From contig NZFT01000003.1 in assembly GCA_002690755.1 (NCBI GenBank), positions 1 through 21,232 on the forward strand: DNA of 21,232 nt, in the 5' to 3' direction. The notes beneath the pieces were generated by a model. The model was given only the letters and a program-made list of their open reading frames with translations, made no database searches and had not been told where the DNA came from. This document shows positions 1,939 to 21,232 of this stretch, piece by piece. The number at the start of each line of letters is the position of its first letter. Position 1 is the stretch's first letter. A program made the position numbers and the translations under genes. Source of the DNA: Phycisphaerae bacterium (GTDB lineage Bacteria > Planctomycetota > Phycisphaerae > Phycisphaerales > SM1A02).

Positions 1939-3318
1939 ATGCACCGATCGATCCACCGAATCCTCACGTCGCTCGCCCCTGTTTTGATCGCATGGGCGAT
2001 GCCTGCGTCGAACGCGGACGGCGGACAGTCACCCCCGGCCGTGGATTGGTTCACCTCCCACCAGGGTTCGCGCGAGGAATCGCATGGTCACTACATCCTT
2101 GAATGCGAGGACGGTGGGTTTCTTCAGGTCGGCGAAACGGGATTCGTGGGCTCGGACGCGCGGATCCTCGTGGTGAAGACGGATTCCGCCGGCGTCCTGG
2201 TGTGGAAGAAGGAGTTCGGCACCGGCAGCCGCAACATGGGCAATTCGGCGCTCGAAGTCGCGGATGGATACCTCGTGTGCGGAATGCTGTCGCGCAACAG
2301 CGCGATTCTCAAACTCGCCAAGGACGACGGGGCCACGATCTTCCAGCGGACCCACGACAACGGTGGGGCCGATGCCTTCGAGCATCTCGCCTCCACCGCG
2401 AACGGCGTGCTGGCGGTGGGATACCGACAGGCAGAGGATCCGAACAGCACCTTCTTCGCGTACGGCCGAGGCCAGATCACCTTCCTCGACTCGGACGGCG
2501 AGTTCCTCGCCGGACGAAGCGTCGACGCACACCTCTCGCAGGCCTACCGGGTGCAGCCCACCGGTGACGACTTCATCATCGCCGGCGGCACGGACGATGC
2601 CCTTGAGTACGGCGTCATCAAGGTCGACGCACTCGGAAAGACGCTGTGGAGCAGGACGTTCGGCGGTTCCGAGGAGGATCACTGCTTCGGTATGGATCTC
2701 GGCGCCGACGGCTCGATCTTTCTCGCCGGCCACACCCTCTCCGGGACCGCGAACTGGGACACCTACACCATGAAGCTGAATGCGGACGGCGAGCAGCGCT
2801 GGGAGCGGAAGCAGGGCAACCCCAGAGGATTCAACCCGAACTACATCCACGACGAGACCTGGGGAATCAAGGCCACGCCGGACGGCGGGTGCGTCATCGC
2901 GGCCGGGACCGGCGACGAGTACTCGTACTCGGAATGCACCGCGGGCGTCTGTTCCGACCAGTGGGAGGCGTATCTCGTGAAGTTCGACGCGGTCGGAAGC
3001 GTCGACTGGGAAGCGACCTACCGAAACCAGAATGGCGGCGACTGGGCGGCGGAAGACCTCGACCTGACCAGCGACGGCGGGGCGATCGTCGCGGTCGACG
3101 ACTCGTCGTTCGGATTTCTGAAGCTCGCACCGTTCCTCGATCCGTCGGATCCGGTCGATCCCGCGGATCTCAACGGCGACGGATGCGTCGATGCCGCCGA
3201 CGTGGGCCTGCTGCTCGTGGCCTGGAACGCTCCGGGCGGTGACATCAACGGTGACGGCAACACGGATGCCGCCGACCTCGGGCTGCTCGTCGCCGCGTGG
3301 TCGCCCTGCAAGGGATGA
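1939..3318 (+). CDS. Secreted beta-propeller-like protein with C-terminal dockerin-like repeats
   Basis: 459 residues. GGAG at 1929-1932 lies six bases before ATG 1939. Residues 1-27 form a signal peptide. The body repeats a motif of the form 'V-K-x-D-x-x-G-x-x-x-W-x-x-x-F/Y': VVKTDSAGVLVWKKEFG, VIKVDALGKTLWSRTFGGS, TMKLNADGEQRWERKQGN and LVKFDAVGSVDWEATYRN. Between these lie 'DGGxxxAG' strands, which is typical of PQQ-like or delta-60-type beta-propeller blades. The last 45 residues hold two Ca-binding loops, DLNGDGCVDAADVGLLL and DINGDGNTDAADLGLLV, like type I dockerin repeats. In planctomycetes these are widespread on secreted proteins without a classical cellulosome. An extracellular role is likely; the ligand is unknown. 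Confidence 0.85.
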   Translation: MHRSIHRILTSLAPVLIAWAMPASNADGGQSPPAVDWFTSHQGSREESHGHYILECEDGGFLQVGETGFVGSDARILVVKTDSAGVLVWKKEFGTGSRNMGNSALEVADGYLVCGMLSRNSAILKLAKDDGATIFQRTHDNGGADAFEHLASTANGVLAVGYRQAEDPNSTFFAYGRGQITFLDSDGEFLAGRSVDAHLSQAYRVQPTGDDFIIAGGTDDALEYGVIKVDALGKTLWSRTFGGSEEDHCFGMDLGADGSIFLAGHTLSGTANWDTYTMKLNADGEQRWERKQGNPRGFNPNYIHDETWGIKATPDGGCVIAAGTGDEYSYSECTAGVCSDQWEAYLVKFDAVGSVDWEATYRNQNGGDWAAEDLDLTSDGGAIVAVDDSSFGFLKLAPFLDPSDPVDPADLNGDGCVDAADVGLLLVAWNAPGGDINGDGNTDAADLGLLVAAWSPCKG

Positions 3319-11763: not shown

Positions 11764-13206
11764 TCACATGTTCTGACCCACCGGGTCACCCAGCACCACC
11801 ATGCTCTGGAAGTACTCGATCACTCCGGAATCCGAGACGTCCAGGGCCGGCCACTGCGGCCAGTCGAACGTGTCGTTCATGAAGGGCTGCATCTGATCCC
11901 AGCTCAGCACCGTGAGGTGATTGACGTCGTGGTTGATCGCCACGCCTTCGATCGACCGGAACCCGTGGCATCGACCGTGCATCCACCCGCCGTAGTGCGG
12001 TTCCATCTTGAGGGTGTTGATGAAGGTCTGGACCATGCCGTTCGCCTCGAGGTGCTCGGCGTATCCCTCGATGCCGAACTCACGGACCATGTCCATGACC
12101 AGCGCCTCCATCTCGATCGGATTGCAGACGGTTCGGGCCGTGCGCTGGATGTCCGCGAGGATCTGCGGGTCGTACGCCTCGTCGGTGATCCAACCGACCT
12201 TGGCGCCCTGCATGGCGTAATAGAGACCGACACCCTTGAGGTCCTCACCCCACCACTGATCGTTGTTGGTCAGTTCCTCGCCGAAGGCCCAGTATCCGAC
12301 GTCCTCGATTTCGAGGGCCGGCAGTCCGATGAAGCCGCGGAGGTCGTTGTAGGCCAGCATGGCCTCGGTGGTGATGACGGTCCGACCACCGACCATGTGT
12401 TCATGGTCTGAGTTGTTGTTCGAACCGTGGAAATCGCCCCAGCACGTGATGTCGATGAACTCGCCCATGCACGGCATGTGGTCCTCGTTTGAACCACCAC
12501 CGTGGGGATCGCACGAACCCCATCGACCGAGCAGCTGAGCCAGATCCGCACCATCCACGAGTCCGGACTGGTCGAGGTCGGACATCGCGTCGGAGCTGTT
12601 CCAGGCGGCGAGCAGGGTTGCGAGGTCGCCGCCGTTCACCATCCGGTCGCCGTCGAGATCGCCGAAGCAGCATCCACCCGAGTCGCCCCCGTCGTGGCCG
12701 CCATCGTCCTGACCACCATCGTCGTCACCGCCATCTCCGCCATCTCCGCCATCTCCGCCATCGCCGCCATCGCCGCCATCGCCGCCATCGCCGCCATCGC
12801 CGCCATCGCCATCGATCGTCACGTCGACGAGCATGCCGTTGATCCGGACGTCCATCGGTGACGGTGGCCACGACCCGATCCCCGTGAATCCCAGCGTCAC
12901 GGACTCACCCGGCTGGATGTTCTCGTTGTAGTAGACGTGCCCGAGCACGGTCCGGTCACCGTCCATGGAGAAGACGCAGTTCCAGGCGCCCTCGACTTCG
13001 GGATTCCCGAGCCAGGAGAGATCCCAACCGTTCAATCCCGGTCCGTTCTGACCCACCTCAAGCACGATGTCGGCGTTGTAGCCGCCCTGCCATTCCGCCG
13101 TGACTTGGAAATCGACTGACTGCTGTCCGTGGAGCACGCTCGAACAGAACAAAGGCACGGCCACGCATCCAGCCAACGACATCTTTCGATTCAATCCTAT
13201 TCTCAT
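11764..13206 (-). CDS. Secreted CBM2-like, Asp-Gly-Gly linker, dockerin and unknown His-rich domain protein
   Basis: 480 residues from ATG 13206, with AAGGA at 13214-13218 upstream; the frame to 13290 is not preferred. A signal peptide covers about residues 1-27. Residues 31-122 resemble a family 2 carbohydrate-binding module: VDFQVTAEWQGGYNADIVLE, GLNGWDLSWLG, WNCVFSM and YYNENIQPGESVTLGFTG, with conserved-type Trp61, Trp75 and YN. Residues 134-160 are nine Asp-Gly-Gly triplets, followed by more Asp/Gly. Residues 182-231 are two dockerin-like Ca loops (GDLDGDRMVNGGDLATLL and SDLDQSGLVDGADLAQLL). Residues 248-475 form one long domain with a histidine cluster (EPHYGGWMHGRCHGF, AINHDVNH; His404, 410, 414, 426, 430). 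It also has an aromatic-rich segment, NDTFDWPQWPALDV. I do not recognise its fold or activity. A carbohydrate-directed extracellular role is inferred from the binding module. Confidence 0.82.
   Translation of the reverse strand: MRIGLNRKMSLAGCVAVPLFCSSVLHGQQSVDFQVTAEWQGGYNADIVLEVGQNGPGLNGWDLSWLGNPEVEGAWNCVFSMDGDRTVLGHVYYNENIQPGESVTLGFTGIGSWPPSPMDVRINGMLVDVTIDGDGGDGGDGGDGGDGGDGGDGGDGGDGGDDDGGQDDGGHDGGDSGGCCFGDLDGDRMVNGGDLATLLAAWNSSDAMSDLDQSGLVDGADLAQLLGRWGSCDPHGGGSNEDHMPCMGEFIDITCWGDFHGSNNNSDHEHMVGGRTVITTEAMLAYNDLRGFIGLPALEIEDVGYWAFGEELTNNDQWWGEDLKGVGLYYAMQGAKVGWITDEAYDPQILADIQRTARTVCNPIEMEALVMDMVREFGIEGYAEHLEANGMVQTFINTLKMEPHYGGWMHGRCHGFRSIEGVAINHDVNHLTVLSWDQMQPFMNDTFDWPQWPALDVSDSGVIEYFQSMVVLGDPVGQNM
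12728..12808. repeat. Nine-copy 9-bp tandem repeat encoding Asp-Gly-Gly
   Basis: Plus-strand units are CCGCCATCT (three) then CCGCCATCG (six), without other change. In the minus-strand gene they encode nine DGG triplets between the CBM2-like domain and the dockerin-like repeats. Confidence 0.95.
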
Positions 13207-13728
13207 CCTGACTTCCTTCCGATGCCCCTTCTTCGAGTATCTAACGAAGCACGGTACGCACCAAGGATCCAACGGTTCCTCCAGCTGCACGACACCACGG
13301 AGAAAATGTCACGAGGTCGTGTTCAACAACGCTAAACGAAGATCGATTTCGAGTATCGCCACGGTGTTCGTTGCGCATGATTCATTTTCACGCAGCGCCG
13401 CGATGGAACGTTTCGAACGTTTCGGCCGTTTCGATCGCCATCCTCCGCCACCACCGGTACCAGCCGTGCTCGCGGATGCATCGACCCCCGCGTGCAACGT
13501 GAACTCGATCGCGTGTCGATGACGCACGGCGTCGGCGACAAGGAACGACGACGATTCCCGAAGTCAACGCCGGCCCGACGTTTGATCCGATGGCCACCGC
13601 GATTCCCGAAATGGCGGCGGCGCGATGCCGAACGCACGAACAACGAGAATGCTTCACTGATCAACTCGGCACTCCACGCGTTCGAGCGTCCACGAATCGC
13701 TCCGCGGACGCATCGGAGAAAAAGCGTT
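13207..13728. other. Intergenic region upstream of the CBM2-like gene
   Basis: 522 bases with no supported gene; open frames here are low-complexity shadows. It probably holds the promoter of the minus gene at 13206. The distinct element is the triple CGTTTCG repeat at 13409-13435. Confidence 0.5.
13409..13435. repeat. Three 9-bp direct repeats CGTTTCGnn
   Basis: CGTTTCGAA, CGTTTCGGC and CGTTTCGAT lie head to tail about 200 bases upstream of the CBM2-like gene. The 9-base period is not that of B-form DNA turns, so a protein-binding array is possible but not certain. Confidence 0.5.
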
Positions 13729-14856
13729 TCAGAAGCCGGGCAGCTTCTTGACGTCCTCTTCGGGACTCACGTCCATCGGTCGTCTTCGATAGCACTTTCC
13801 GGAGGTGAAGTCGATGTCCTTCAGGTCGACCTCACGGATCCGGCGATTGTTCATGGTGTGGAACTGAATCGTGAGATTCCGGGTGTCGTAGGCGACGGTC
13901 CACTGCGTGCCACTCCGCAGTTCGGAACCGCCGTCGCCTTTCGCACCCGCGGTCACGGCCTCGACCGGAACGTTGAAGTTGTCGAGGATTCGGAACGCCT
14001 CGTACATCGTCTCGGGCCCGGTCTTCGTGGGGCGGGCGCTCGCCGAGAACGCCGCGGCCCGCACGAACCGGGACGGCGGCGTCATGTCGCCGGGCAGTCC
14101 GATCGCCCCGGTACCGTGGCCGAGTGGTGCAAGGTCCGCCCCTCGAACGTCGATCGAAGACCGCTCCGTCGCCGAGAAACCCAGATAGTTTCGCAGGTTG
14201 GTCATGTGCCAGTCGTAGGTCGGTGCATTCGTGAGGACCCCGAGCGGCGCGTCGAAGATCCGGATCCTCCGTTCGAAGAACTCGACCACGATCGCCTTGC
14301 CACTCGGCTCGGTGATCAGGAAGTGCAAGGGCGGCTGGATGCCACCGAGCGCCTTCATCGGCGTCGCGACGACCGAGACCGCGTTGATCGCGTCCCGGGA
14401 CTCCTCGGTCGATGCACACGTCGCCAGCAGATAGAGGGGAACGTCGGTGACTTCGATGCTCGAGGCGACCTGCGCCGGGTCGAGCGTCGGATAGGAGGCG
14501 TAACCGGGATGGTAGAGGCCGTTGACCACGAGCCCCTGCTCGTTCATGCCGTCGATCAGGTTCTCACGATCGAGGTAGTCGAAGCCCACGACGCCGTGGG
14601 TGGTCTTCCAGGAGACCCCCGATCGCCCCCCCTCGAGCTCACTGGTGAACTCACAGTCCCGAGGAATCACCACGACCTTCGAATCGACGTCGAAGGCCGC
14701 CCACTCCATCGTGCGTCCCACCACCACCGCACCGTCACTCGCTTCGAGCGTGATGCAGGTGCAGGCCTCCGCGTCGCGGACGCTGGAGATCGTTGCAGTC
14801 GCGACGAAGAGGGCCAGCGCAAGGGTGAGATGCGAGCTGCCGGTCGGGGTTTTCAT
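13729..14856 (-). CDS. Exported choloylglycine hydrolase-family (linear amide C-N hydrolase) protein
   Basis: 375 residues from ATG 14856, preceded by AGGAAA. A signal peptide ends in DAEA, directly before Cys32 of CTCITLEASDG. In this Ntn-hydrolase family (bile salt hydrolase, penicillin V acylase) the N-terminal Cys freed by cleavage is the nucleophile. Arg48 in VVVGRTMEW is 16 residues after Cys32, as expected for the conserved active-site Arg. GMNEQGLVVNGLYH, HFLITEPSGKAIVVEF and GVLTNAPTYDWHMTNLRNYL (the Asn of the oxyanion site) complete the signature. It should cleave linear amides in the periplasm or outside. The substrate is unknown; relatives cut bile salts, penicillin V or acyl-homoserine lactones. 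It appears monocistronic. Confidence 0.88.
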   Translation of the reverse strand: MKTPTGSSHLTLALALFVATATISSVRDAEACTCITLEASDGAVVVGRTMEWAAFDVDSKVVVIPRDCEFTSELEGGRSGVSWKTTHGVVGFDYLDRENLIDGMNEQGLVVNGLYHPGYASYPTLDPAQVASSIEVTDVPLYLLATCASTEESRDAINAVSVVATPMKALGGIQPPLHFLITEPSGKAIVVEFFERRIRIFDAPLGVLTNAPTYDWHMTNLRNYLGFSATERSSIDVRGADLAPLGHGTGAIGLPGDMTPPSRFVRAAAFSASARPTKTGPETMYEAFRILDNFNVPVEAVTAGAKGDGGSELRSGTQWTVAYDTRNLTIQFHTMNNRRIREVDLKDIDFTSGKCYRRRPMDVSPEEDVKKLPGF

Positions 14857-14948
14857 CGGTGTTTTCCTGATCGTCGGGAATGATGGACGAGGGTAGTCGG
14901 AAGATCACCACGCGGCAATCGTCGATCGTTCGATTCCCTCCCGAACGT

Positions 14949-14981
14949 CAGGACACCCCGGCGGCGTACCGGGGTGTCCTG
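14949..14981 (-). terminator. Perfect 13-bp hairpin terminator
   Basis: CAGGACACCCCGG (14949-14961), a 7-base loop, then CCGGGGTGTCCTG (14969-14981). It lies about 55 bases after the stop of the minus gene at 15036-16076. Confidence 0.7.
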
Positions 14982-15035
14982 TGATGCGATCGTCGGATCG
15001 GCCGGTCGGCGGCGTTCGCGCCACCGACCCGGCGC

Positions 15036-16076
15036 TCAATCGACCCGGTCGACGGTCTGGGCGCCTTCGCTCCAGCTCATCGGATGCCGGACACCATCGA
15101 GCGACATGTTCTGGAAGGTGGTGGTGAGGGTCTTCGGCGTGATGACCTGGGTCGCGTGGGTGCTCATGGTCAGTCCGCCGAACCGGCTGCCCTCGTGGGT
15201 CGCGACGATGGTCACGGCGTCACCGTTGCGGGTGATCGAATCGACCTTGCCGTGGATCACCGTTCCGTGGGCGTCGAGATAGAGCGTCGCGACGTGGTCG
15301 TACGCCGGGTCCCAGTACCAGACGAAGAGACTCTCACTCTTCCAGTCGCCGCCCGGTGACTTCGCGGATCGCTCGTACTTGAGCACGTGGTCGTCGGCGA
15401 CCCAGGAGACCACCTCGCGAGCGATGGTCCCGTCGGGACGCGTGGTCTCCCAGGTACCGGGCAGGCCGGCCTCCGCAAGCGTCGCCTTGCAGGGATTCGC
15501 CCGCGTGGATTCGCTGGTCCAGGCGTTACCGTCGGCCCCCTTCACCTTCACCGCATTCGTCCTGGTGTTCAGGCCGGTGTAGGTGACGACGTTCTCATAG
15601 ACCGTGGTCTTGCCCTGTGAGTGCTCGGTGTACTCCCACGTCAGGGTGTCGGCGGTCATGCCGACCAGCACCGAATTGCCGTGGTACGGCTTGCCCATGT
15701 CGAACCCGGAGCCCGCCGAAACGACCGCCTTTCGATCCGCATCCCAGGTCATCACGTTCGACCCCGTGGAGATGACGCGTCCATCCTCGGCCTCCATGTG
15801 ATGACTGTTGTAGAGCTCGCCGGTCGGAACGTCGTACCAGGTCTTCTGCGTGTTCGTGACTTCGAGGCCCGCGGGAATGCCGACCCACATCGCCTCCGTG
15901 ACGCCGACGTCGCTCCAGGTTCCGCAGGCGCCGCGATCCAGGTTCCAGTGAACGAACTCGTCCATGGACGCGGGCGTCGAGCCTTGGTCCGCGACGACGG
16001 TGCCGGTGAACGCCAATGAGGCGGTGATGATGATTCCAGAGGTCAGGTGCTTCAAGATCTGCAATCTCCTGTTCAT
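15036..16076 (-). CDS. Exported protein of unknown function with an internal duplication
   Basis: 346 residues if ATG 16076 is used. This start gives a clean signal peptide (MNRRLQILKHLTSGIIITAS, cleaved after VVA). The frame runs up to 16229, but the added part has no exported-protein character. No strong ribosome-binding site is visible. The mature protein seems to contain two related beta-rich halves. The first includes TWDADRKAVVSAGSGFDMGK and LVGMTADTLTWEYTEHSQGK. The second includes WYWDPAYDHVATLYLDAHGT and DSITRNGDAVTIVATHEGS. The 'W-D ... G ... GxVxxxTxDTLTW' pattern resembles DUF1579-like calycin domains, but I am not sure. It has a single transcription unit with a strong hairpin after it. 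Confidence 0.7.
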   Translation of the reverse strand: MNRRLQILKHLTSGIIITASLAFTGTVVADQGSTPASMDEFVHWNLDRGACGTWSDVGVTEAMWVGIPAGLEVTNTQKTWYDVPTGELYNSHHMEAEDGRVISTGSNVMTWDADRKAVVSAGSGFDMGKPYHGNSVLVGMTADTLTWEYTEHSQGKTTVYENVVTYTGLNTRTNAVKVKGADGNAWTSESTRANPCKATLAEAGLPGTWETTRPDGTIAREVVSWVADDHVLKYERSAKSPGGDWKSESLFVWYWDPAYDHVATLYLDAHGTVIHGKVDSITRNGDAVTIVATHEGSRFGGLTMSTHATQVITPKTLTTTFQNMSLDGVRHPMSWSEGAQTVDRVD

Positions 16077-16172
16077 GGGATGAGGTGGGCGAAAGAACGA
16101 GGCGTTGCCGACGGAACGCTCGGGAACAAGATAGTCGCCGAACCGAGCCAGTGCGTACTTCGGAATGACTGA

Positions 16173-16182
16173 CAAACGTTTG
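16173..16182. promoter_or_regulatory. 10-bp palindrome upstream of the exported protein gene
   Basis: CAAACGTTTG is a perfect palindrome about 100 bases before ATG 16076 on the minus strand. It may be an operator or chance. Confidence 0.25.
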
Positions 16183-16312
16183 GGGCGCATCGAAGATCGG
16201 ATGCGTCGCCCCACCATCGACCACCACACCCATGTCGATTCACATGAGGCCGATCACCCTCCCGTGGGCAGTTTCGGAGCATCCACCGGCGGCGGCTTCC
16301 GGCCGACGAAAC

Positions 16313-16345
16313 GAGGCGGATGTGGAACGTGTCCACATCCGCCTC
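16313..16345 (-). terminator. Perfect 13-bp hairpin terminator of the Fur-divergent gene cluster
   Basis: GAGGCGGATGTGG (16313-16325), a 7-base loop, then CCACATCCGCCTC (16333-16345). It lies 31 bases after the stop of the gene at 16376-17077, at the end of the three-gene minus-strand cluster, and marks its likely 3' end. Confidence 0.75.
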
Positions 16346-16375
16346 ATTGAAGATCAGACCAGGTCGAGGGTTCGT

Positions 16376-17077
16376 TCAGGCCCGACGACGACGGGAGGCG
16401 AGGCCGGCCATCGCGAGCAGGCCGATGGCACCCGGTGCCGGCACGAGGTTGCCCTCGACCCACTCGACGGAGGCTTCGAAGTCCTCGTCGTCCAGGCCGA
16501 AGTTGAACGCGATCCAGAACGAATCACTGGTCGCGAAGCCGTCCATCGCGACGTTGAATTCGAGCAGGTAGGAGCCGGCGATGGAGTTCGGATCGATCGA
16601 GTAGATCGGATGCAGGTCGTAGTCTTCGGAGATCAGGAAATCGATCGAGCCACCGGTCAGCGAATCGATCGACTCCGGTCCGTAGTCGATGAACATCGAG
16701 GTGGCGTTGTCGGCATCGAAGCCGTTGCCGTTCCAGATTCGGAGGCCTGAAGCCAGGTTCAGGTTGAGAGTCGCCCCGATCGGAAGTCCGAGCTCGGCGG
16801 CGACGCCGCCGATCCCGGGTTCGTCGATGGCGAAGGGAAAGTCGGGATCCTCGCCGAAGTGTCCTTCGAAGACCCGCAGACCAGCGACTTCGAGCGTCTC
16901 GGTGTCGTGATCCCATCCACCGGTGCGAAGAACACCGTTGTCGTTCCAGACGCCGATGTCATAGTGCTCCTCACCCTCTTCGTCGGCGATCGCCGCGGAT
17001 GAAATGAGGACGGGAAGCGAGGCCACCACGGCGAGCCGGGCGAGACGAGCAGTCGAACTGAAGGACGTAAACATCAT
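16376..17077 (-). CDS. Secreted PEP-CTERM-like protein, paralogue of the preceding gene
   Basis: 233 residues from ATG 17077 (a second ATG follows at 17074). The frame open to 17482 is a shadow of the previous gene. A signal peptide ends at about residue 31 (SSAAIA). The mature part starts DEEGEEHYDIGVWNDNGVLR and continues with LRVFEGHFGEDPDFPFAIDE, PGIGG, LASGLRIWNGNGFD, DLHPIYSIDP and SDSFWIAFNFGLDDEDFEAS. These blocks line up in order with the 264-residue upstream neighbour. The tail starts VPAPGA, runs through a hydrophobic stretch and ends in SRRRRA: a PEP-CTERM-like exosortase signal. It is acidic, with several His that could bind metal. I recall a family of Zur-repressed PEP-CTERM proteins in cyanobacteria; membership here is an untested suggestion. 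It is the last gene of the cluster, 79 bases after its paralogue. Confidence 0.8.
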   Translation of the reverse strand: MMFTSFSSTARLARLAVVASLPVLISSAAIADEEGEEHYDIGVWNDNGVLRTGGWDHDTETLEVAGLRVFEGHFGEDPDFPFAIDEPGIGGVAAELGLPIGATLNLNLASGLRIWNGNGFDADNATSMFIDYGPESIDSLTGGSIDFLISEDYDLHPIYSIDPNSIAGSYLLEFNVAMDGFATSDSFWIAFNFGLDDEDFEASVEWVEGNLVPAPGAIGLLAMAGLASRRRRA

Positions 17078-17156
17078 TTGAAAACTTTCACTCGGAAGGG
17101 AGTGGATGAGAAGCAGGATTTGGAGACCGAAGCCGCAGAGGGACTGGTCGGAAGGA

Positions 17157-17951
17157 TCAGGGACAGATTCCCCAGGAGCCAAGCAGCAGGCCGACATCGG
17201 CGCCCCCGACGGTTCCATCGCCATCGAGGTCGAGCTCGGGATCTTCGGTTCCGAACGCGCCGAGCATCGAACCGAAGTCCGCGCCGTCGACGACCCCGTT
17301 GCCATCAAAGTCGCCGGGGCATGGGGGTGAGTCGTCGAAGGAGCCGATCGCGGCATCGACTTCGGCGTTGGACGCGTCGTAGTTGAAGAGGATGACGAAC
17401 GGGTCGCTGTCGGCGATCCCCATGGTCGAGTAGAGGGACAGGTCGAGCCTGTAGACACCGGGACGCCGTTCTCCCGAGGCATCGCCGAGAATCTCGAAGT
17501 CGAGGTGCCGATGCCAGCCGCCGTTGGGCTGGACGGCGAGATCGAATCCGCTCATCGGCTCGTCTTCGACCACGCGTTCGAGTGTGATGAAGGAGATGCT
17601 CATCCGCTCGGGAACCGAGGTCGGCGTTTCCCAGTCACCGAGCTTCATGTCCCAGCGGCGCAGACCGGCGAGCACGTTGAAGCCGATCCGTCCCGGAGCG
17701 AACGTCCCTGGGAAGGCGTCGAATCCGGGATTCGACGTGTAGCCGGGGAAACCGGTGTCGCCGAACACCCCGTAGAAGATACCGTTCGCGTCCTCTGCCC
17801 CGATCGGGCCATCGACCTTCAGGCGACCGTCCGCGACTCCGAGCCCGATGTCCCCGGGGTGCTGCGCCATCGCATCGCCGGCGAACAGAAGCAACGGAAG
17901 CAGGAGGATCCGGAGGAGGGCGATTGAGTGTCGTTTCGGATCGTGGTTCAT
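17157..17951 (-). CDS. Secreted protein with dockerin-like repeats, paralogue of the next gene
   Basis: 264 residues from ATG 17951, with AAGGA about 9 bases upstream. A signal peptide ends AMA before QHPGDIG. The domain of about 180 residues carries DIGLGVADGRLKVDG, GIFYGVFGDTGFPGYTSNPG, FAPGRIGFNVLAGLRRWD, GWHRHLDFEIL, GVYRLDLSLYSTMG and SDPFVILFNYDAS. The same blocks are seen in the PEP-CTERM paralogue. The C terminus has two Ca loops, GDFDGNGVVDGADFGSML and LDLDGDGTVGGADVGLLL, of the dockerin-like type. It begins 46 bases after the stop of the prepilin-leader gene, so the two are probably co-transcribed. Its function is unknown; a metal-related extracellular role is inferred only from the divergent Fur-family gene. 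Confidence 0.82.
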   Translation of the reverse strand: MNHDPKRHSIALLRILLLPLLLFAGDAMAQHPGDIGLGVADGRLKVDGPIGAEDANGIFYGVFGDTGFPGYTSNPGFDAFPGTFAPGRIGFNVLAGLRRWDMKLGDWETPTSVPERMSISFITLERVVEDEPMSGFDLAVQPNGGWHRHLDFEILGDASGERRPGVYRLDLSLYSTMGIADSDPFVILFNYDASNAEVDAAIGSFDDSPPCPGDFDGNGVVDGADFGSMLGAFGTEDPELDLDGDGTVGGADVGLLLGSWGICP

Positions 17952-17997
17952 TCGTGGGTGTCCTTGCTGGCGACCTGCAGGTCGATCGACCATCGGC

Positions 17998-18804
17998 TCA
18001 TCCGCCCGTTCTCGGAAGCTCGACCGTGGGATCGAAGGCATTGCGATCCGCCGATTCATAGAGATCGCCGAACTCGATCGTGGCGGTCGAGCCGTCGAGC
18101 ATGCCGTAGTTCGAGGTCGCGAGTTCATCCACGACCTCTTCGCCCTCCGCCGCCGAGATCGCGACCTGGCGGCTTGCAAGTTCCCAGGGCTCGTTCCCCG
18201 CGTCCCATGATTCGACATGGGGGTGGTCACTCACCGCGAAATCGCCCTTCCGGGTCATGTGCAGGAAGCACACGATTCGCTCCGGACGTCGCACCTTCGT
18301 GAACCGATCGGCGGCGTGCCCCGGGCCGTACAACGCGACCATCGGGGAGTAGTTCCTCGAGAGGTAGTTGTTCATGCCGTAGCTGGTCCGACGCAGCGGC
18401 CCCGCCCCGCCGTCCTCGACGCCGATTCCGTCACCCCCGACATCCGAGGGCCAGTGCCGACTCGTGTCCAGCGGCGACTTCATCACGATGTCGTCCGTGT
18501 ATCGCGCGAGGACCTCCGCGAAACTCTGGGCCTCGTCCCCGTAACCACCATGAGGCAGCCCGACGTCCACGAAGTGGTCGGTATTCGTCGCCTGGTACGC
18601 GAGATGCGCAACCCCGAGCTGCCGGAGCTGCGAGAGGTCCATGGTGTTCAAGGAGGCCAGCCGCGCTCCGCGAAGCATCGGAACCGTGATTCCGACGAGG
18701 AGCGTGATGACACCGAGCACGACGAGAATCTCGATGAGCGTGAAGCCGTTTCGTTCTCGCGCTAGCACGCGGCCGAGACCGGGATTTCGTCGCGGTGGAA
18801 TCAT
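17998..18804 (-). CDS. Prepilin-type N-terminal cleavage/methylation domain protein
   Basis: 268 residues from ATG 18804, with GGAG seven bases upstream; the longer frame to 18873 overlaps the promoter and is unlikely. The class III signal RNGFTLIEILVVLGVITLLV has the prepilin peptidase site after Gly20 and the conserved Glu25 (position 5 of the mature form). The rest is a globular domain of the kind found in large planctomycete pseudopilin families (DUF1559-like). It includes TDHFVDVGLPHGGYGDEA, RTSYGMNNYLSRNYSPMVAL, RRPERIVCFLHMTRKGDFAV, SDHPHVESWD and a 'YGMLDGSTATIEFGDLY' end, where many relatives have an ADGH motif. It is first in the cluster behind the Fur-type operators and is rich in surface His/Asp. 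It may be an assembly or surface component, but its role is unknown. Confidence 0.82.
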   Translation of the reverse strand: MIPPRRNPGLGRVLARERNGFTLIEILVVLGVITLLVGITVPMLRGARLASLNTMDLSQLRQLGVAHLAYQATNTDHFVDVGLPHGGYGDEAQSFAEVLARYTDDIVMKSPLDTSRHWPSDVGGDGIGVEDGGAGPLRRTSYGMNNYLSRNYSPMVALYGPGHAADRFTKVRRPERIVCFLHMTRKGDFAVSDHPHVESWDAGNEPWELASRQVAISAAEGEEVVDELATSNYGMLDGSTATIEFGDLYESADRNAFDPTVELPRTGG

Positions 18805-18844
18805 CTGGTCGCTCCAAAAGCGGACATCCGCCTGAATCACCCCT

Positions 18845-18873
18845 ATGATTCCTTGATGGCAATTCAGTGTCAA
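18845..18873 (-). promoter_or_regulatory. Promoter of the prepilin/paralogue cluster
   Basis: On the minus strand TTGACA (18873-18868) is a perfect -35 box. After a 17-base spacer comes AATCAT (18850-18845), which matches the -10 consensus in four of six bases. The predicted start of transcription lies about 35 bases upstream of ATG 18804. Confidence 0.6.
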
Positions 18874-18881
18874 CTTCTATT
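18853..18881 (+). promoter_or_regulatory. Possible promoter of the Fur-family regulator
   Basis: On the plus strand TTGATG (18853-18858) lies 17 bases before TCTATT (18876-18881). Each matches the sigma-70 consensus in four of six bases. Box 2 would overlap the -10 box and the transcription start, allowing autoregulation. Confidence 0.35.
18857..18872. promoter_or_regulatory. Candidate Fur/Zur-type operator, box 1
   Basis: TGGCA, a 6-base spacer, then TGTCA. This inverted repeat has one mismatch and overlaps the -35 box and part of the spacer of the minus-strand promoter. It is well placed for repression. It resembles box 2 in half-site and spacing. Confidence 0.5.
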
Positions 18882-18896
18882 GGCAATAAACTGCCA
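18881..18896. promoter_or_regulatory. Candidate Fur/Zur-type operator, box 2
   Basis: TGGCA, six bases (ATAAAC), then TGCCA: a perfect 5-bp inverted repeat, extended imperfectly outward (ATTGGCA against AATGGCA). Its centre is 24 bases from the centre of box 1. It lies between the two divergent promoters. Confidence 0.55.
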
Positions 18897-18955
18897 TTTT
18901 CACCCCGCTGACGACCCGAATCGACCTGAGCCGTCGAAAATGGGAGAATCTCGGC

Positions 18956-19336
18956 ATGACGAGCCGCAGGAACACGAAGCAGCTTGAGGCGATCCGGACG
19001 GCGATCATGGAGGCCGGCAGGCCACTCTCCATCGAAGAGATCCATGCCGCCGCCAGCGATGCCGTCCCTTCCCTGGGCATCCGCACGGTCTATCGGACGA
19101 TTCGGCGACTGCAGGAGGACGAGGAAGTCGCGAACGTTCCGGTTCCCGGATCGGCAGACCGCTACGAACCCGCGGCAGTCGCGTCGCACCATCACCACCA
19201 CTTCCATTGTCGGATCTGTGATCGTTTCTACGACATCGAGGGCTGCCCGGGTGGCCTGAGCAAGATGCTCCCGAACGGGTTCCAGCTCGAGTCACACGAA
19301 CTCACGCTCTCCGGTCGCTGCGCCGCCTGCGCCTGA
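18956..19336 (+). CDS. Fur-family metalloregulator (Zur/Fur-like)
   Basis: 126 residues from ATG 18956, with GGGAGA eight bases upstream. The N-terminal winged helix (about 6-75) includes the recognition segment SLGIRTVYRTIRRLQEDEEV and the strand ADRYEPA. The C-terminal dimerisation part has a His run (78-82), His84, the pair C85-x-x-C88, Cys97, His114 and the pair C122-x-x-C125. The two C-x-x-C pairs form the structural Zn site of Fur proteins. The regulatory metal cannot be read from the sequence. Zur is my preference because of the divergent His-containing surface proteins. It is shorter than typical Fur (about 140-150 residues). It is divergent from the three-gene cluster, with two inverted repeats between them. 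Confidence 0.88.
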   Translation: MTSRRNTKQLEAIRTAIMEAGRPLSIEEIHAAASDAVPSLGIRTVYRTIRRLQEDEEVANVPVPGSADRYEPAAVASHHHHHFHCRICDRFYDIEGCPGGLSKMLPNGFQLESHELTLSGRCAACA

Positions 19337-19372
19337 TCCCTCCGGGCCGAAGCCGCCCCAGCGCGGCGAAGC

Positions 19373-19837
19373 TCAGATCCGCCGGGTCATGCAGACGCTG
19401 TCCGGACAGTGGCGGTACTCGCCGAACGGCGGGCAGATCTTGAAACCTCCACGTTCATACAGCCGACGCGCGGGCGCGAAGCCCTTGCCGGTTCCGGTCT
19501 CGAGGCTCACGCGGCCGGCGCCCTGCTCGTAGGCCGTCGACACCAGACGCTCGAGCATCGCCCAGCCGATCCCACGTCCGCGGGCCGCTTCAAGCGTGTG
19601 CATCGACTTGATCTCGACGTGATTTTCCTCGAATGGACTCACAGCGCCGATCGCGAGCAGCCGTCCTCCCCCTCGAGCGGCGAAGAACTGCACACCCTCC
19701 GCCGCGAGCGTCTTCGCGTCGAGCACGTTGACGTTCTCCGGCAAGGACCACTCCTGAGCGAAGTCGAGATGGGCCTGCAGCGCGAGCGCGACGTCGGCGG
19801 CCGTCGGATCGTCGAGCGCGATTTCGAGATCGGTCAT
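19373..19837 (-). CDS. GNAT-family N-acetyltransferase
   Basis: 154 residues from ATG 19837. The acetyl-CoA-binding motif A, KSMHTLEAARGRGIGWAMLE, contains R-G-R-G-I-G. It is preceded by the strand FFAARGGGRLLAIGAVSPFE and followed by GRVSLETGTGKGFAPARRLY with the RLYERGGF helix (motif B), all standard for the fold. It transfers acetyl from acetyl-CoA to an amine; the substrate is unknown, and I recall similar small members annotated only as GNAT. It starts 46 bases after the AIM24-family gene stops, so the two probably form an operon. It is convergent with the Fur-family gene. Confidence 0.88.
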   Translation of the reverse strand: MTDLEIALDDPTAADVALALQAHLDFAQEWSLPENVNVLDAKTLAAEGVQFFAARGGGRLLAIGAVSPFEENHVEIKSMHTLEAARGRGIGWAMLERLVSTAYEQGAGRVSLETGTGKGFAPARRLYERGGFKICPPFGEYRHCPDSVCMTRRI

Positions 19838-19883
19838 CGAAGCCGTCCCTTCCCCTGAACCCGTGAAACCGACGCCGAGCCCG

Positions 19884-20588
19884 CTACTTGCTGGGACATT
19901 GCGCGACGATGTGGCTGACCACGCGACCCCAGGGCAGGCTCTGCATGATCACCTTGCCCGAACCCCGGATCGTCGCGAGGAAGACACCGTCGCCGCCGAA
20001 CACCATGGTCTTGAGATTTCCGGCCCGCTCGATCGAGAAGTCGAGCCCCTGATCGAACGCCACCACCGCACCGGGCTCGCACCGCAGCACCTCGTCGTCG
20101 AGCGTGCGTTCGATCACCGAACCGCAGCAGTGCAGGAACGCCGTGCCGTCACCTTCCAGCTGCTGGAGGAAGAAGCCCGCGCCGCCGAACACGCCCGCCC
20201 GGATCCGGTTGGCCCGTTTCGCGTTGATGTGCGTGCCCTTGGTCGCGCACAGGAAGCCGCTGTGCTCGACCTTGATCGCGTTGCCCCAGTCGGGAAGATG
20301 GACCGGCACGATGCGACCCGGACTGTTCGCGGCGAACGAGACCTTCGCAGGCCCGCTTCCACCGTTCTCGAAGTGGGTCAGGAACACGCCCGCGCCGGTG
20401 ACCGCCCGCCCCAACGCCCCCATCAGCCCTCCGCTCTTGCCGGAGCCGTCGCCGACCCTTGCCTCGAAGGTGATGCCCTCGTCCATCGCCAGCAGGGTCG
20501 ACGCCTCCGCGACGAGCTCCTGGCCCGGCTGCAGCGTGACCTCGACCGCCTGCATGTCGTTTCCGAGAATGGTGTGTTCGATCAGCAT
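19884..20588 (-). CDS. AIM24 / TIGR00266 family protein
   Basis: 234 residues from ATG 20588. The sequence shows the family pattern from start to end: MLIEHTILGNDMQAVEVTLQ, PGQELVAEASTLLAMDEGIT, GAGVFLTHFENGG, GRIVPVHLP, GGAGFFLQQLEGDGTAFLHC, EPGAVVAFDQGLDFSIER and GGDGVFLATIRGSGKVIMQS. The fold is a beta-sandwich 'tryptophan RNA-binding attenuator-like' barrel. Bacterial members are of unknown function; the yeast relative AIM24 acts in mitochondrial membrane organisation. The length is normal for the family. It is first of a two-gene unit with the GNAT gene. Confidence 0.9.
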   Translation of the reverse strand: MLIEHTILGNDMQAVEVTLQPGQELVAEASTLLAMDEGITFEARVGDGSGKSGGLMGALGRAVTGAGVFLTHFENGGSGPAKVSFAANSPGRIVPVHLPDWGNAIKVEHSGFLCATKGTHINAKRANRIRAGVFGGAGFFLQQLEGDGTAFLHCCGSVIERTLDDEVLRCEPGAVVAFDQGLDFSIERAGNLKTMVFGGDGVFLATIRGSGKVIMQSLPWGRVVSHIVAQCPSK

Positions 20589-20776
20589 GGGCGGGCTCTT
20601 TCTTCGGGTTGGGGTTTCGCGAATTCGCCGGACGAAAGTCTATCGATCTTGAATCACGAGTACCTCCGTCATCCCGGCATCGGGCCGGTGAAAATCACCC
20701 GTCCGGACGTCATCGTGTTTCCACCCACCATCGGCATCGTCGAATCCACGCCGGGACCGGTCACGAAACGGATCGG

Positions 20777-21232
20777 ATGCCACGCGCCGTCGTCTGGTTC
20801 AAACGCGACCTGCGGGTCGCGGATCACGCACCCCTCGTCGAAGCCGCCGAGCACGGTCCGGTGGTCGGCCTCTACACCCACGAGCCCGAGGTGCTGGCGT
20901 CCCCGGAATGGTCGCCGCGGCATCTCGCCTTCATCGAGGACTGTCTCGGGGAACTCCGGGACCGACTCGCATCGCTCGGTTCGGTCCTGCTGGTGCGACA
21001 CGGCGCCATGCCGGAGACGCTCGACCGCCTCCATGATCAATGGCGATTCGAGGAACTTCGGAGTCACGAGGAGACCGGACTCGCGATCACCTACGCCCGG
21101 GATCGTCGGGTCGCGGCGTGGTGTCGACGCCGGAACGTCCGCTGGATCGAGCGACCGCAGCACGGCGTGGTCCGACCGCTCGCCTCCCGCGACGGCTGGG
21201 CCGGTCGGTGGCGACGAAGAATGGCCACCCCG
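20777..21232 (+). CDS. Cryptochrome/photolyase family protein, 5' part
   Basis: Open from ATG 20777 to the window end without a stop (152 codons), so the gene continues to the right. The N terminus MPRAVVWFKRDLRVADHAPL is the classic photolyase start (VVWFKRDLR-x-x-D). The antenna domain continues with GPVVGLYTHEPEVLASPEWS, RHLAFIEDCLGELRDRL and LVRHGAMPETLDRL. The segment EETGLAITYARDRRVAAWCR, then PQHGVVRPLASRDGW and RRRMATP, resembles deoxyribodipyrimidine photolyases and related cryptochromes. These use FAD and blue light to repair UV-induced pyrimidine dimers or to sense light. The FAD domain lies outside the window, so the type (CPD, DASH or other) cannot be decided. Confidence 0.88.
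   Translation, partial: MPRAVVWFKRDLRVADHAPLVEAAEHGPVVGLYTHEPEVLASPEWSPRHLAFIEDCLGELRDRLASLGSVLLVRHGAMPETLDRLHDQWRFEELRSHEETGLAITYARDRRVAAWCRRRNVRWIERPQHGVVRPLASRDGWAGRWRRRMATP

Follow-up and report, generated by a model that had tools for sequence, protein, structure and literature searches.

A prepilin, dockerin and PEP-CTERM-like cluster of a Phycisphaerae bacterium, probably under Zur control and serving zinc acquisition at the cell surface

To our knowledge, the collection of zinc by bacteria outside the cell is poorly known, with ZepA as one described exoprotein case. ZIP and Znu genes are familiar members of Zur regulons. COG0523 proteins are established in such regulons as well (PMC2770081). 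ZepA (All3515) of Anabaena is reported to be a Zur-repressed, exported PEP-CTERM zinc protein with a beta-sandwich described as its domain A; homologs are spread over several phyla, among them the PVC group, Planctomycetota are named as hosts, the non-cyanobacterial homologs have a FUR gene nearby, and the motif H-X2-9-H-F/Y-H is reported for all of them (PMC10957091, 2024). Here we analyze a four-gene cluster on a 21,232-nucleotide stretch of DNA from a Phycisphaerae bacterium (the window), which is the whole of contig C129 of its assembly (3.47 Mb, 88.8% complete). An earlier note on this DNA knew of no description of such a system in this group, a statement that does not stand as worded beside the Zur-linked ZepA exoproteins of the 2024 paper, whose hosts include Planctomycetota. 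A limited literature search on Planctomycetota and Zur, covering titles and the starts of abstracts, returned only the ZepA paper on a system of this kind, and we do not claim absence from print.

The cluster combines traits of three described systems. Like ZepA, it encodes apparently exported proteins, one of them with a tail that looks PEP-CTERM-like, has palindromes over its promoter, lies near FUR and zinc-handling genes in some genomes, and probably serves zinc acquisition. Unlike ZepA as published, it lacks the characteristic histidine motif, holds two paralogs of which one is dockerin-tailed, and has a constant prepilin partner; in the main text on ZepA the count of words that start with 'pilin' or 'pseudopilin' is 0 (PMC10957091). 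Because the ZepA motif is absent from the present proteins, ZepA is a near precedent rather than a description of this locus. With Zur regulons containing COG0523 and ZIP/Znu genes, as reported, the cluster shares a FUR-family regulator and a palindrome common to CobW/COG0523 and MerC-ZIP units (PMC2770081); here the palindrome reads TGGCAAT-NN-ATTGCCA, also stands before MerC and before the prepilin module, and did not turn up ahead of ABC-3 importers. The window prepilin resembles the minor pseudopilins of type II secretion and type IV pili in its GFTLIE-type leader (TIGR02532, PF07963), but it is tied to exported proteins and carries an invariant D-H-x-H-x-E-x-W block plus H85.

We read the cluster as a Zur-repressed module for zinc acquisition outside the cytoplasm, at the cell surface, and give this reading a probability of about 0.64. 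Sequence comparison shows the operator, the fact that it recurs before zinc-type genes, the pairing with the prepilin and the invariant histidines; zinc binding, repression, the export route and the hand-off of zinc we infer. The features are as follows.

18956..19336, plus strand: FUR-family regulator, best read as Zur from solved relatives, CxxC pairs and the regulon in relatives; 126 amino acids; PF01475 at 55.6 bits
18881..18896, no strand: operator-like palindrome 2, 24 bp from palindrome 1 and about 60 bp before the ATG of the regulator gene
18857..18872, no strand: operator-like palindrome 1, overlapping the -35 box of the prepilin promoter
18845..18873, minus strand: sigma-70-type promoter of the prepilin gene, TTGACA-N17-AATCAT, 10 of 12 matches
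17998..18804, minus strand: prepilin (type IV pilin/pseudopilin-like), 268 amino acids; TIGR02532 and PF07963 above cut-off; invariant residues
17157..17951, minus strand: exported beta-sandwich protein with a C-terminal GC-type dockerin, 264 amino acids; invariant H31, H147 and H149
16376..17077, minus strand: exported beta-sandwich paralog with a PEP-CTERM-like tail, 233 amino acids; invariant H38, H57 and H156
16310..16348, minus strand: hairpin after the last gene, a possible terminator; -38 kcal/mol, z -6.6; weak U tract

Comparison upheld the arrangement proposed in the earlier note, a FUR-family gene divergent from genes for a prepilin, a dockerin protein and a PEP-CTERM-like protein. 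The last two, which it had called paralogous, match at 99.5% in hhalign when gene 3 is set against the dockerin-protein alignment. The promoter and both 16-bp palindromes are where it had placed them, with palindrome 1 covering the -35 box. The closing hairpin is also real (0 of 200 shuffles folded equally well); it has no entry in the terminator scan, and with its weak U tract a terminator role is only possible.

The palindrome recurs in relatives that carry the same regulator subtype. Before the prepilin gene it takes the form given above in seven genomes (G003, G004, G005, G007, G009, G014 and G029). Allowing at most two mismatches, the pattern occurs 54 times in 13 genomes, against 11 times for a reversed control. 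Eighteen of these matches lie at the cluster or the regulator, two sites contributing four of them because they are present on two contigs that overlap; two more matches precede MerC or CobW. We also built a matrix from eight prepilin-promoter sites and applied it to 244 upstream regions from 18 loci, taking expectations from first-order Markov simulations. Sixteen regions scored at least 17 (0.15 expected) and 22 at least 10 (4.55 expected), counts in which regions are not independent, as divergent genes share sites and two loci overlap. Eleven of the 16 contain or share a training site. The five that are independent of training (three distinct sites) belong to the regulator and a histidine-rich gene in G005, a PEP-CTERM gene in G029, and a short open reading frame (ORF) before CobW in G020 together with its divergent ORF; the short ORF has a zinc-ribbon match below threshold only.

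G005, G006 and G007 have paired sites, again 24 bp apart, before a regulator gene that faces one for a histidine-rich protein. This is a possible zinc outer-membrane protein: PF13557, an outer-membrane type, scores just above cut-off in G007, and the G005 copy has no Pfam match. The histidine-rich protein stands divergent from the regulator, with paired operators, at L082:306-1280 (the only one of the three with PF13557), L090:214-1188 and L046:10684-11649.

The same operator marks zinc-type genes away from the cluster. A MerC above the Pfam cut-off is present in 4 of 20 genomes, and a strong CobW (at least 190 bits) in 3 of 11; together they form six transcription units. Four of the six have a clear site: MerC in G009 (20.4 bits), the ORF plus CobW in G020 (17.8), CobW in G014 (16.1) and MerC-ZIP in G013 (15.6), where the ZIP gene follows the MerC gene. 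The MerC-CobW unit of G004 has a partly masked site (11.8 bits, five bases N), and the MerC unit of G029 has none. The sites in G009 and G014 were first found by motif search and the others via gene families; Pfam confirms ZIP in G013, MerC in G009 and CobW in G014. A second COG0523 type (94-106 bits; L105, L113 and L114) has no site. Three named genomes (L218, L219 and L220) have a same-strand ZIP gene as the immediate upstream neighbor of the cluster, and the palindrome sits in the gap between ZIP and prepilin; the ZIP frame of L218 is in pieces. These units and the adjoining ZIP genes support, by comparison, the metal-controlled exported or surface system of the earlier note, with zinc and not iron as the metal. 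Among 12 further loci, three genera of a distant family have a window-type Fur in the vicinity, and a fourth has MerC (Pfam) adjoining. These neighbors suggest a link to such control in the distant family; with about three FUR genes per genome, we estimate that the proximity exceeds chance.

The regulator is best read as Zur, because the palindrome precedes zinc-type genes in relatives and a ZIP gene adjoins the cluster in three of them. Its FUR domain scores above the Pfam cut-off of 23.1. The closest solved structures, 3mwm (E 4.5e-11) and 7vo0 (E 8.8e-11), are labelled 'putative metal uptake regulation protein', and we take both to be Streptomyces coelicolor Zur. The structural zinc site CxxC...CxxC is present as CRIC and CAAC, and both pairs are retained in 10 of 11 aligned regulators, the eleventh (L049) being degenerate. 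The presumed zinc preference comes from the regulon of the relatives and not from the regulator's own residues. The genome encodes two other FUR-family proteins, one beside catalase-peroxidase and one at C34 that is its strongest general FUR match. Its other metal regulators, the FUR protein beside catalase-peroxidase and MntR at an ABC-3 importer, look accounted for.

The prepilin is the constant partner of the exported proteins. We counted the pairing in 33 loci, the window included, and in 53 named loci from a scan of named genomes; these two sets hold partly the same records, and the named relatives are labelled mostly Phycisphaera sp., Phycisphaerae, Phycisphaerales and other Planctomycetota metagenome-assembled genomes. 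The prepilin adjoins exported proteins in 31 of the 33 loci and in 51 of the 53. Of the two named misses, one is cut at the contig start, and the other, L218, has prepilin and dockerin protein as a single ORF. An even sample of the phylum, with no more than seven candidates scored per genome and search, gave a prepilin above 200 bits in 23 of 392 Planctomycetota genomes; in every one of the 23 the best copy adjoins a member of the exported-protein family. A second copy in G045, one of these genomes, scores 200.1 bits and has no exported-protein neighbor among the candidates listed, and weaker matches in G049, G115 and G376 likewise come without a listed family member. Among neighbors in the 33 loci no other gene family is as constant as the prepilin, the next one occurring in 5 genera against 18. 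The pairing is the new element here, although we do not claim that it is unpublished.

Besides its leader with an N-methylation motif, the prepilin has H85, D113, D193, H194, H196, E198, W200 and D237 invariant among 18 aligned homologs, and the same positions are 98-100% conserved in a 77-sequence alignment, where the numbering is one lower. In our reading it would be the dedicated partner of the two beta-sandwich proteins, either a pseudopilin needed to export and display them or itself a zinc-binding surface subunit. If it binds zinc itself, the cluster could form a zinc-scavenging pseudopilus or surface filament, with a histidine-bearing minor pilin that carries or extrudes the paralogous zinc-binding beta-sandwich proteins; Phycisphaerae and some other Planctomycetota would then have a zinc acquisition machine coupled to a pilus. 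We regard this extended version as doubtful. In another part of the phylum the prepilin has a very histidine-rich partner with a PEP-CTERM-like tail (L280:7540-8307, L281:7018-7770). Similar-looking membrane-type ORFs of 50-55 amino acids with a CxxC lie beside the module or upstream of ZIP (L050:8831-8983, L129:269-436) and have no Pfam match.

The exported proteins carry invariant histidines of their own. H31, H147 and H149 are the same in all 53 homologs of the dockerin protein, and H38, H57 and H156 in all 62 sequences of the PEP-CTERM-like protein. The three invariant histidines of the prepilin and the three of the dockerin protein suggest zinc binding. The C-terminus of gene 2 is a dockerin of the GC type by fold and by NF041540, and this part is the only one with a clear match to a solved structure. 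Fold searches otherwise returned only weak pilus-adhesin or Ig-like sandwich matches and no clear match to a whole domain, which does not in itself make the fold new; a plasmid search for a distant homolog found no match. The AlphaFold2 model of gene 3 has a pLDDT of 85.0. Its tail resembles the PEP-CTERM type by eye and matches no model; distant relatives that pass TIGR02595 are L052, L070, L073 and L282. Signal peptides were likewise judged by eye. The module is not universal, with what we read as a full-length or near full-length match in 33 of the 61 genomes searched, the window's own included.

In the mechanism that we propose, the FUR-family protein would bind both palindromes when zinc is sufficient, covering the -35 box and shutting off both its own gene and the prepilin-dockerin-PEP-CTERM operon. 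When zinc is scarce the operon would be expressed. The two beta-sandwich proteins would then be exported, to stay on the cell surface or be released from it, with the prepilin helping or accompanying their export. Their conserved histidines would capture zinc outside the cell and hand it on, probably to a ZIP-type importer.

Several observations weigh against this reading. Of the 54 pattern matches, 34 lie elsewhere than at the cluster, the regulator, MerC or CobW; nine of these were inspected, five falling inside ORFs and four between genes with no obvious zinc link. One of the four is a strong site in G020 (22.4 bits, L092:7378-7393) and has the gene of an HNH endonuclease 66 bp further on. 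The matches in L098-L100 belong to the intergenic ones, and those in L093-L096 and L101, which lie inside called genes, were rejected as operators. In the window's own genome the palindrome occurs only at this locus, besides two C15 matches that were rejected because both lie in ORFs, so that here the regulator counts as a Zur by orthology. Within the genus, G001 and G006 (two of seven genomes besides the window's own) lack a full-length homolog of the dockerin protein and show dockerin matches only. G006 nevertheless keeps the regulator and its paired sites, so the regulator can do without the module. The conserved histidines could be structural, and the HxH pair is absent from gene 3 and from L278.

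The operator is also restricted in range. The palindrome precedes the prepilin in 10 of the 53 named loci, all within the 14 at 54% identity or more, the other four of those 14 being cut off upstream (two) or without the palindrome (two). The earlier note had counted homologous loci without the regulator or the repeats against its idea, and this applies in part: 39 named loci, all at 46% identity or less, have neither the palindrome before the prepilin (no site of at least 14 bits, at least one locus, L239, being cut there) nor a window-type Fur in the stretch fetched. The operator is therefore shown for one clade only, and a search for another palindrome before the prepilin in the Fur-less lineages returned nothing consistent. 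Importers speak against the reading too. The ZIP gene of the window's genome (G000; C97:3386-4168) has no site, nor do those of G003, G004 and G009, and ABC-3 (ZnuB-type) importers have none, with a best score of 8.3 bits over 12 upstream stretches from 11 genomes. These stretches were rescored because a first test (25 loci, none within two mismatches) had missed operon promoters. MntR scores above its NCBIfam cut-off next to the ABC-3 importer in G000 and G020, and an MntR-like gene is near in 9 of the 12 stretches. The importers tested are thus probably for manganese, which softens their lack of a site as counter-evidence. The ABC-3 importer beside MntR in the window's genome lies at L291:1056-2741; its substrate-binding protein is nearest to AztC, a zinc model, under cut-off.

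Other explanations start from the regulator's metal. It could be an iron (Fur) or peroxide (PerR) sensor, making the cluster an iron- or oxidative-stress surface system. Its metal site allows for this and counts against a Zur: the cysteine before the HHHH of the solved Streptomyces Zur is substituted, with a conserved glutamate (E71) nearby, so that metal specificity cannot be read from the regulator's sequence. Its NCBIfam matches, moreover, are Fur, PerR and Irr models, all far under cut-off. Iron or peroxide control is nevertheless quite unlikely, given that the operator recurs before MerC, CobW and MerC-ZIP units and did not come to light before genes for iron or peroxide, in genomes that were not scanned gene by gene, that two further FUR-family proteins, at catalase-peroxidase and at C34, are present, and that the nearest solved relatives are Zur. 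The metal could also be incidental to the cargo. A general adhesion or pilus-biogenesis module, with a prepilin and adhesin-like proteins, might have come under metal control in one clade without handling metal itself; this too we consider unlikely.

It is very improbable, by comparison, that the two exported proteins simply belong to the ZepA family as published. The logic is the same, with export, a tail that looks PEP-CTERM-like, a FUR gene and zinc genes nearby and palindromes over the promoter, and a beta-sandwich is described for ZepA too, as domain A (PMC10957091). In the window itself the FUR gene and the sites are present, while zinc genes are near only in relatives. Yet H-X2-9-H-F/Y-H is absent from 52 of 52 and 18 of 18 homologous ORFs (70 of 70), a separation that uses the published motif only, and the conserved HxH lies at about mature residues 117-119 rather than 53-55. 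NCBIfam scans of the homologs matched no ZepA-type model. A zinc-acquisition module under probable Zur control remains the reading we prefer.

The zinc interpretation is strengthened by the comparison, and the operator is limited to one clade. With this locus, ZepA is joined by a second protein family, apparently controlled in the same way and constantly paired with a prepilin. The locus would give a concrete link between pilin-type export machinery and metal acquisition, and it offers a candidate Zur operator for Planctomycetota.

The rest of the assembly and of the window yielded minor observations. The end of contig C97 overlaps window 11764-21232 at 99.5% identity over 9,470 columns; the regulator is identical, while the prepilin has 9 base differences, of which 6 are silent. 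We rejected a genomic duplication of the locus and read the overlap as an unmerged or strain-variant contig, so the assembly holds contigs of that kind. An NHLP leader-peptide RiPP precursor lies at 186-470 of the window (TIGR03793, 58.7 bits, cut-off 50.9). At 1939-3318 the window encodes a secreted delta-60-repeat/dockerin-like protein, with look-alikes at L128:7854-9233 and L129:569-1939. These look-alikes share a neighborhood of about 20 kb with zinc-type genes in G004 and G020.

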